Shown one piece after another: positions 26,541 to 31,384 of a DNA stretch of 64,000 nucleotides. The notes under the pieces were generated by a model that made no database searches, was not told where the DNA came from, and worked only from the letters and a program-made list of their open reading frames with translations. This DNA comes from Microtetraspora malaysiensis. GTDB lineage: Bacteria; Actinomycetota; Actinomycetes; Streptosporangiales; Streptosporangiaceae. The position numbers were made by a program, and so were the translations under genes. The stretch spans positions 124,001-188,000 of the forward strand of contig NZ_BBYJ01000006.1 of NCBI RefSeq assembly GCF_001528665.1. The letters are read 5' to 3'. Within the stretch, counting starts at the first letter, position 1. Each line of letters starts with the position of its first letter.

Positions 26541-27470
26541 CTAGAGCGCCTGCCGTGCCGCGATCGCCTGCTGGTAGAGGCGACCGGCCCGGTAGGAGGA
26601 GCGGACGAGCGGCCCGGACATGACGCCGGCGAAGCCGATCTCTTCGGCTTCCTGCTGCAGCTCGATGAACTCCTCGGGCTTCACCCAGCGCTCCACGGGG
26701 TGGTGGCGGGGGCTCGGGCGGAGGTACTGGGTGATCGTCACCAGGTCGCAGCCCGCCTCGTGGAGGTCGCGCAGCGCCTGGGTGATCTCCTCGCGCTCCT
26801 CGCCCATGCCGAGGATGAGGTTGGACTTGGTGACCATCCCGGCCTCGCGGGCCGCGGTGATCACTCCGAGGGAGCGCTCGTAGCGGAACGCGGGGCGGAT
26901 CCGCTTGAAGATCCGCGGGACGGTCTCGATGTTGTGCGCGAACACCTCGGGCTTGGCGGAGAAGACCTCCTCGAGCTGCTCCTGGATCCCGTTGAAGTCG
27001 GGCACCAGCAGCTCGACACCGCAGCCGGGGAGCTGCGCGTGGATCTGGCGGGCGGTCTCGGCGTACAGCCAGGCGCCGCCGTCGGGCAGGTCGTCACGGG
27101 CGACACCGGTGACGGTGGCGTAGCGCAGGCCCATCTGCTTGACCGACTCGGCCACGCGGCGCGGCTCGTCCTTGTCGTACTCGGCGGGCTTGCCGGTGTC
27201 GATCTGGCAGAAATCGCAGCGTCGGGTGCACTGGTCGCCACCAATGAGGAAGGTGGCCTCCCGGTCCTCCCAGCACTCGTAGATGTTGGGACAGCCGGCC
27301 TCCTCACAGACCGTGTGCAGTCCCTCGCGCCGCACCAGCGATTTAAGCTCGGTGTACTCCGGCCCGGTCTTCAACCGGGTCCTGATCCACGGCGGCTTCT
27401 TCTCGATCGGGGTCTGGCTGTTGCGCACCTCCAGGCGGAGGAGCTTACGGCCATCAGGGGCAACGGACAC
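26541..27470 (-). CDS. lipA: Lipoyl synthase
   Basis: 309 aa radical-SAM enzyme that inserts two sulfurs into protein-bound octanoate. The auxiliary cluster cysteines are C55, C60 and C66 ([12 protein letters not shown]), the radical-SAM cysteines C81, C85, C88 (CTRRCDFC), and the C-terminal RSSY motif is present. The GTG start at 27470 matches the usual N-terminus [15 protein letters not shown]. It follows lipB by 35 bp. Confidence 0.95.
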
Positions 27471-27505
27471 GTCGTCCAGCTTATTACCAGACGTCGGATG
27501 TGCCG

Positions 27506-28159
27506 TCAGGCGAGGTCCTCCTCGTACATGTCGTACGGCTCGGTGCCGAGCGCCTCGGCGAGGCGCTTCTCGGCGAGCGGCATGACCTCGTCCACCGTGA
27601 TGCGGCGGCCGGTCTCGGCGGACAGGGAGGTCACCCCCGTGTCGCCCTCGACGATGCGGTTGTACCAACTCAGGTCGTTGACGCAGTTGAGCGAGAATCC
27701 GTGCATGCTGACGCCGCCCGCCACCCTGATGCCGATCGCGGCGACCCGGCGGTCGGGCAGGCCGCTCGCGGCGTCTCCGGGGACCCACACCCCGCCGTGG
27801 CCCGCGATCCGCCGCGCGACCACCCCGAAGTCCGCGCAGATCTGGATCAGCACGTCCTCAAGCAGCCGGACGTACCCGGCGACGTCGGCGATCCGCAGGA
27901 TGGGGTAGCACACGAGCTGCCCGGGACCGTGCCAGGCGAGTTTCCCCCCGCGGTCCACGTCGATGACGGGAGTGCCGTCGGAGAGCCGCTCGTGCGGCTG
28001 GGTGCGACTGCCCGCCGTGTAGACCGGGGCGTGCTCCAACATCAGGCACAGGTCGGAGATCTCGTTCGCCGCCCGCCGCCGGTGCGCCCGGCGCTGGAGG
28101 CCCCACACCTGCTCGTACGGAACGTCGACGCCCAGCCGGACGACCGCGAGCCCGGTCAT
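27506..28159 (-). CDS. lipB: LipB-like octanoyltransferase lacking its catalytic dyad
   Basis: 217 aa. LipB normally moves octanoate from acyl carrier protein to lipoyl domains. Overall fold and landmarks are kept ([55 protein letters not shown]). However the catalytic lysine in the family's RKVAAIG is arginine here (R138 in RRVAAIG), and the family's IVPCGI segment with the thioester-forming cysteine is shortened to IVEGDTG, with no cysteine. As read, the enzyme cannot use the known mechanism. Gene order with lipA is normal. Confidence 0.85.
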
Positions 28160-29968: not shown

Positions 29969-31384
29969 TCAGGCGAGCCCGAGCTGGTTCTCGAAGCGGC
30001 CCTCCTCCAGACGGCGCTTGACCGTCGTGAGGAAGCGGGCGGCGTCGGCGCCGTCGACCAGGCGGTGGTCGTAGGTCAGCGCGAGGTAGACCATCGAGCG
30101 GACCGCGATGACCTCGCCCTCGGGCGTGTCGAGCACGACCGGACGCTTGACGACCGCGCCGGTGCCCAGCATGCCGACCTGCGGCTGGTTGAGGATCGGC
30201 GTGTCGAACAGGGCGCCGCGGCTGCCGGTGTTGGTCAGCGTGAACGTGGCCCCGGTGATCTCGTCCGGCGTGACCTTGTTGGCGCGGGTCCGCTCAGCGA
30301 GGTCGGCCGTCTTACGGGCGAGGCCGGCCAGGTTGAGGTCACCGGCGTTCTTGATCGTCGCCGCGATCAGGCCGCGCTCGGTGTCGACCGCGATGCCCAG
30401 GTGCTCGACGTCGAAGTACGTGACCTCCATGGTCTCGTTGTTGATCGTCGCGTTGAGCTTGGGGTGCTGCTTGAGGGCCTCGATCGCCGCCATCTCGAAG
30501 AACGGCATGAACGACAGCTTGACGCCCTCGCGGCGGAAGAACTCGTCCTTGGCCCGCGCGCGCAGCCGCGCGATCTTGGTGACGTCGACCTCGACCACCG
30601 TGGTGAGCTGGGCCGCGGTCTGCAGCGACTCGACCAGGCGCTTGGACATCGTCTGCCGCAGGCGGGACATCTTCTCGGTGGTGCCACGCAGCGTGGTGTC
30701 CACCTGGACCTGCTCCGGCGCGGCGGCCGGGGCGGCCGGAGCCACCGCGGCGGGAGCCGCCGGAGCGGCCGGAGCGGCGACCTGGGCCGCGGCCTGCTCG
30801 CGCTGGACGCGGGCGGCCTCGATGACGTCCTGCTTGCGGATGCGGCCACCGACGCCGGTGCCGGCCAGCGCGTCGAGGTCCACACCGTGCTCGGTGGCGA
30901 GCTTGCGGACCAGCGGCGTGACGTACGGGGTCTCGCCGGCCGGGGCGACCTCGGCCGCGGGGACCACCGGAGCGGGCGGAGCCACCGGAGCGGGCGGAGC
31001 CACCGGAGCGGGCGCCGGAGCCGGGGCCGGGGCGGGCTGCGGGATCGAGGAGATCGGCGGGGCCGGCGCGGGGGCCGGAACAGGCTCGGGAGCCGGGGCC
31101 GGGGCGGGTGCCTCGACGGCGGGCGCGGCCGGAGCCGCGGCGCCGGCGCTCTCGTCGATGACGGCGAGCTCGGCGCCGACCTCGACCGTCTCGTCCTCGG
31201 CGACGAGGATCTTGGTCAGGTAACCCGCGGACGGCGACGGGATCTCGGTGTCGACCTTGTCGGTCGACACCTCGAGCAGCGGCTCGTCGGCTTCGACGCG
31301 CTCGCCTTCCTTCTTCAGCCAACGGGTGACGGTGCCCTCGGTAACGCTCTCTCCGAGCTGGGGCATGGATACGGAGACCGGCAT
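29969..31384 (-). CDS. sucB: Dihydrolipoamide acyltransferase (E2)
   Basis: 471 aa. One lipoyl domain with the lipoylated lysine K43 (STDKVDTE), an Ala/Pro hinge, a subunit-binding domain (about 154-190, [16 protein letters not shown]), a second hinge, and the catalytic domain ending with [16 protein letters not shown] (His-x3-Asp-Gly). In actinobacteria this E2 serves the 2-oxoglutarate and/or pyruvate dehydrogenase complex. Its lipoate must come from the LipB/LipA route nearby or from scavenging. 33 bp after lpdA. Confidence 0.93.

Follow-up and report, generated by a model that had tools for sequence, protein, structure and literature searches.

A LipB homologue without its catalytic dyad, maintained beside an intact second LipB in part of the Streptosporangiaceae

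The lipB1 gene of the window (the whole 64,000-nucleotide stretch of Microtetraspora malaysiensis DNA analysed here) occupies positions 27506-28159 (minus strand) and encodes a LipB homologue from which both members of the Cys-Lys dyad have gone; the fold has been kept and the gene is under selection, the combination that marks a pseudoenzyme. The persistence of such a gene is best understood, at a probability of about 0.6, if LipB1 is a maintained pseudoenzyme, probably acting as a non-catalytic binding partner in lipoylation, and if octanoyl transfer falls to LipB2, a second LipB encoded elsewhere in the genome.

LipB1 and the lipoylation genes of the genome

The coding part of lipB1 (27509-28159, minus strand) specifies 217 aa and is followed by its stop codon at 27506-27508; the protein is 95% identical to LipB1 of Microtetraspora fusca. 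Five NCBIfam LipB models match it: NF010925 (258 bits; cut-off 155) and TIGR00214 (105 bits; cut-off 83.55) are passed, and three narrower models stay under their own cut-offs. The AF2 model has a mean pLDDT of 94, with five residues between 50 and 70 and none below 50; block means are 85 at the former catalytic loop and 87 for the last seven residues. It lies close to both 1W66 and 2QHS (Z 30.6-30.8), superposing on the former with Z 30.6 and rmsd 1.6 over 200 residues.

By profile and fold, then, this is a LipB octanoyltransferase; the nucleophilic Cys and the dyad Lys are missing. The dyad lysine of the M. tuberculosis chain 1W66 (Mt Lys142, Ec Lys135) falls opposite Arg138, whose codon is at 27746-27748 (minus strand), and the nucleophilic cysteine falls opposite a gap. 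The shortened loop, Val170-Gly175 (VEGDTG), is encoded at 27635-27652 (minus strand); the Arg168-Val176 interval has seven residues, against 10 in 72/72 Cys-bearing relatives in the same alignment. Both changes had been reported in the first-pass annotation, which estimated the shortening at about three residues, and both are confirmed. In LipB the acyl group is held on the cysteine, and the chemistry is reported to go via an acyl-enzyme (Zhao et al. 2005). Judged from the encoded residues, LipB1 without its Cys is incapable of the known LipB mechanism.

Much of the acyl pocket is still in place. Five of its six residues are kept in the window protein (L41, T48, R70, H77 and H153), and the sixth, Mt Thr81, is Ala75; the RGG loop of the pocket (residues 70-72, 27944-27952, minus strand) and the HGPGQ motif (residues 77-81, 27917-27931, minus strand) are intact. 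Nor does the protein carry the catalytic lysine of an LplA lipoate ligase (Ec Lys133), which the available part of PMC9307952 equates with Mt LipB Lys142: Arg138 occupies that place too.

A search of the whole 8.8-Mb genome with PF21948, the LplA/LipB catalytic domain, points to three places: LipB1, LipB2 and one match below cut-off, in a protein that by eye looks like a biotin ligase. LplA and LipM were not found by this catalytic-domain search. The first-pass annotation had supposed that lipoylation might rely on another enzyme of LplA or LipM type, and had suggested looking for a second LipB; another enzyme there is, of the latter kind. LipB2 (P0002, contig C38:1574-2215) shares 32% identity with LipB1 and retains RK as well as PCG; it satisfies the same two NCBIfam models and is modelled by AF2 at pLDDT 93.4. 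It would be the protein that carries out octanoyl transfer.

LipB2 is encoded on a 131-kb contig, where the nearby genes look, by eye, like deoC and two genes for aldehyde dehydrogenases. When its neighbours were read in six other genomes, two (G138 and G038) shared all of these and a third (G012) the two dehydrogenases; given this context, a plasmid location is not supported. The best match in a plasmid collection (77%) is on an 11.9-Mb Nonomuraea record, which at that size is probably a chromosome. A Streptomyces plasmid (NZ_CP139046.1:368250-368882) carries a lipB 45% identical to LipB2. A source for LipB2 was not found among 395 other sampled genomes of the phylum, where four give matches with E of 1e-42 or lower, at 45-50% identity. 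About 640 nt past the lipB2 stop is a tandem array of GCGACA, some 17.7 copies long (L004:826-931, on C38).

The neighbouring lipA, for lipoyl synthase, runs from a likely GTG start over 26541-27470 (minus strand) and is intact, as the earlier reading had it, with both Fe-S cysteine motifs; it is the only lipA, the lipoyl-synthase N-terminal family having one match in the genome. Within 26541-27503 there is no in-frame ATG near the beginning of lipA, the candidate starts being a CTG overlapping the lipB1 stop, a CTG at +26 and the GTG at +35 nt. A 2-oxoacid dehydrogenase E2 with a lipoyl domain (29969-31384, minus strand) is a likely substrate of the pathway. The genome encodes eight domains of biotin/lipoyl type, including the one in this E2, and GcvH is also present.

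Dyad states across the family

The sample comprised 200 genomes of the same GTDB family, that of the window included. A LipB1 of this type, at E 1e-90 or better, occurs in 87, taken here as the LipB1 clade. Lys and Cys are both present in 15 of its members, Cys only in 44 and neither in 28, and no copy has Lys only. Cys is thus kept in 59 and Lys missing in 72, the lysine site reading R37 Q17 K15 M7 A5 G4 L2. Of the 28 Cys-less copies, 24 have Arg at that place and the other four M, A or L. Outside the clade both residues are present in 81/81 LipB proteins read (13/13 aligned, 30/30 named and 38/38 parsed; 40 outgroup loci were fetched, L250 and L259 being dropped). Sequencing error had been put forward as what might undo the reading of dyad loss. 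It can be dismissed, as can chance or an assembly fault, because Cys has been lost likewise in another 27 genomes and intermediates of graded degree exist.

Among named loci, Cys is missing in all the listed Microbispora, Sphaerimonospora and Planotetraspora and in four Microtetraspora; NBRC 13810, also named Microtetraspora (L045), has Met with PCG and is only 69% identical. Read by the PCG column, 51 clade loci (50 named, with flanks of up to 4 kb, plus the window) divide into 21 without and 30 with Cys, and a count by loop pattern on the same loci is off by one (20/31) through a chance VCS in L052. A lipA was found in all 51, and damage to LipA can be set aside for these loci, both cysteine motifs being present in 51/51. 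A comparison of 18 clade with 28 outgroup LipA sequences gave four clade-specific sites.

A LipB2-type protein accompanies LipB1 in 87/87 clade genomes; in 86 it is P0002 itself or at least 73% identical to it, and in G025 it is 55% identical and may perhaps have another origin. K and C are present in 40/40 parsed LipB2-type proteins, 39 of them from the clade (40 of 41 loci were parsed; L225 was dropped, and its gene was read, with K and C, from L182). The other 113 genomes include six with a LipB2 match at 1e-40. In G090 and G114 that match is the LipB1 place itself. G134 and G151 combine a LipB1 that keeps K and C with another LipB-like protein, whose identity to LipB2 is 50-53%. G017 and G197 have the LipB2 type and lack LipB1; they are unfit as proof that a LipB2-type protein suffices, as G197 carries a further PF21948 protein and the G017 genome is 89% complete. 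This genome outside the clade (L225 and G197:C1:8515335-8515943) pairs the LipB2 type with another member of the LplA/LipB family; LipB1 is missing from it and its lipA is unlinked.

Clade members share one more feature, an acidic motif of the form E-[ED]-[DE]-[LVI] that ends the protein or lies close to its C-terminus and in the window is E213-E-D-L216 (27512-27523, minus strand). It is mostly preceded by an aromatic or hydrophobic residue and D or E, and Glu213 is invariant. The motif is found in 87/87 clade members and in 0/68 outgroup proteins; the latter count leaves aside 13 aligned outgroup rows, which end at the match end and are uninformative for the tail. It is also present in LipB1 proteins that keep the full dyad, so any role it has arose before catalysis was lost.

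A LipB1 tree that left out the dyad and loop columns shows four separate clades in which Cys was lost, of 24, 2, 1 and 1 members (support for the 24-member clade, 89%). The Lys-less proteins form 15 maximal clades, and Fitch parsimony counts eight changes. All four Cys losses fall in Lys-less lineages, which is suggestive, and with only four events falls short of proof, of Lys having been lost before Cys. Since no member lacks a second LipB or the acidic motif, not even G025 and G061, which branch deepest, both features probably predate the dyad losses.

Constraint on the Cys-less copies

No stop codon interrupts any Cys-less lipB1. In three genera with such copies the median dN/dS is 0.18, 0.21 and 0.26 by NG86 and 0.04, 0.03 and 0.09 by YN00 (the latter excluding pairs whose dS was undefined or at least 3), against 0.145 and 0.038 for the Lys-Cys LipB1 of genus g6. 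By NG86, LipB2 in the same genomes gives 0.07-0.17 and LipA, from named loci of the corresponding genera, 0.075-0.13; in genus g23 LipB1 evolves faster than its LipB2 (0.26 versus 0.07). Because the within-genus pairs diverged, by parsimony, after the loss, the constraint acted once Cys had gone. When the same base changes were assigned to random sites, 35/35 within-genus Cys-less pairs had fewer amino-acid changes than each of 300 shuffles (observed/expected 0.19-0.59), with the provisos that pairs sharing branches are non-independent and that stops made by the shuffling (0.4-1.2 on average) counted as changes. The controls are weaker in places: one g65 LipB2 pair was reached by 23/300 shuffles and one g6 Lys-Cys LipB1 pair by 97/300. 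By these sequence measures the Cys-less copies are maintained, not decaying. The first-pass suggestion of a pseudoenzyme with a new role is supported as to the pseudoenzyme by this purifying selection; what the role might be is considered below.

A second perspective supposes that the protein is jobless, a relic or a gene retained just because its frame or promoter serves downstream lipA. This is unlikely. It agrees with the presence of lipA in every locus read, with the likely GTG start of the window lipA only 35 nt past the lipB1 stop, with tail codons that resemble a ribosome-binding site, and with a somewhat relaxed LipB1 in g23. The permutation, however, reveals selection on amino acids, beyond a mere open frame, and LipB1 is retained in every one of the 86 genomes whose LipB2 is close (P0002, or at least 73% identical). 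The acidic motif, moreover, is not merely a ribosome-binding site of lipA, because its codons vary synonymously across the clade and because, in many loci with a recognisable lipA start, the closest ATG or GTG is about 50 to several hundred nt away.

Over the 28 Cys-less copies 90 residues are invariant, among them RGG, HGPGQ, Thr48 and His153; T48, R70, G71, G72, H77 and H153 are each the same in 28/28. Six positions of Mt LipB contact the acyl group according to the available part of PMC9307952 (Leu47, Thr54, Arg76, Thr81, His83 and His157); in the Cys-less copies four of these are invariant, the Leu47 place differs in two copies, and the Thr81 place is Ala in 8/28, the window among them. 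In the 24-member Cys-less clade mean identity is 84% over the body and 42% over the loop, against 75% and 74% in the Cys-bearing members. The loop measures 6-11 residues in Cys-less copies, with ten in 10/28, against 10 in 72/72 Cys-bearing relatives.

It might be argued from the intact fold and largely intact pocket that LipB1 is still an octanoyltransferase, working by direct transfer without an acyl-enzyme or by way of another nucleophile such as Cys159, in the HGFxLNC strand. That residue is invariant in 100 aligned LipB1 proteins (28/28 with a Cys-less loop, 59/59 Cys-bearing and 13/13 outgroup) and is a valine in the LipB2 of the same genome. Such chemistry is nevertheless very unlikely: Cys159 is equally conserved in copies with a normal dyad and so looks structural, the dead loop drifts in both length and sequence, and with a full second LipB in the genome no new chemistry is needed.

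A proposed binding role and its relation to known systems

The preferred reading, a maintained pseudoenzyme that binds, may be set out as follows. In the stem of the clade a second LipB would already have been present, and LipB1 would have gained its acidic C-terminal motif. LipB2, with Lys and Cys, could take over octanoyl transfer; LipB1, relieved of it, would then have lost Lys in many lineages and Cys in four, the fold, most of the acyl pocket and the tail staying under purifying selection. The old pocket would hold an octanoyl carrier or a lipoyl domain, and the tail would dock on LipA, LipB2 or an E2, making the protein a non-catalytic adaptor or regulator of lipoylation.

Experiments on the E. 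coli enzyme, as given in the available part of PMC9307952, offer a parallel. The K135A mutant keeps activity (Vmax 0.20 versus 1.08, Km 42 versus 12 uM); K135A/C169A is called catalytically inactive by the authors, binds octanoyl-ACP at 36 uM and has lost contact with the 3'-phosphate of CoA. Since the dyad-less mutant binds, a natural LipB that lacks the dyad and keeps most of the pocket is likely to bind as well.

Some observations count against this account of maintenance for binding. A full dyad in 15/87 LipB1 proteins means that loss is not compulsory; G134 and G151, outside the clade, combine a second LipB-like protein with an intact LipB1; the pocket is incompletely kept, and the ten-residue loop persists in some Cys-less copies; the 3'-phosphate contact is lost in the E. 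coli double mutant, and although Arg may stand in for Lys there in 24/28 Cys-less copies, the other four have M, A or L; the second LipB of G025 is divergent, and LipB1 of g23 evolves faster than its LipB2; and loss of the lysine by itself need not kill, as E. coli K135A attests. The dyad-bearing pairs could instead reflect a division of labour, in which the two proteins serve different acceptors; in the lineages without a dyad LipB2 would have taken all of them, and LipB1 would hold or titrate octanoyl-ACP as a sensor of fatty-acid state. The retention of K and C in those 15 proteins, the likelihood of several acceptors (E2 and GcvH) and the binding of octanoyl-ACP by the E. coli double mutant fit this scheme; no regulatory link has been seen, and the scheme seems quite unlikely. 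A bolder form of the preferred reading, which we hold as tentative and rather less likely than not to be right, makes LipB1 a tail-bearing pseudo-octanoyltransferase subunit that presents octanoylated domains or the acyl carrier to LipA or LipB2, the conversion of an enzyme into an adaptor being caught at every stage in one family.

The retention of a catalytically dead paralogue alongside an active copy has known precedents. The present case has a practical consequence: the gene next to lipA passes a curated LipB model though its product cannot use the known mechanism, so that a profile match does not imply catalytic residues, and the enzyme worth studying is likely LipB2. Within the clade there is also a natural series, from an intact dyad through the loss of Lys and then of both residues to an eroded loop, in which the remaining protein is nearly constant; whether and how a LipB acts beyond catalysis thereby becomes directly testable. 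No report of a LipB pseudoenzyme or of a paralogous LipB in this family was found in the literature searched, from which subscription papers were largely absent, so that this is weak evidence of novelty; the available part of PMC10332631, a GTDB survey of lipoate assembly, does not mention a dead or second LipB pattern.

Compared with the LipB octanoyltransferases of M. tuberculosis (1W66) and E. coli, LipB1 shares the fold, the family profiles and the RGG and HGPGQ motifs; it differs in lacking both dyad residues, in its shorter loop, in the added acidic motif and in having a second LipB in the genome. The same two positions are lost in the E. coli K135A/C169A mutant, which is called inactive and binds octanoyl-ACP (PMC9307952, available part), whereas LipB1 is natural, is maintained across a clade and has a loop that is remodelled, not point-mutated. 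The LplA-LplB bipartite ligase and the LipM/LipL relay, as described in the available part of PMC10332631, likewise place more than one such protein in a single lipoylation pathway; in the present case, unlike those, the supposed partner would be a dead LipB.
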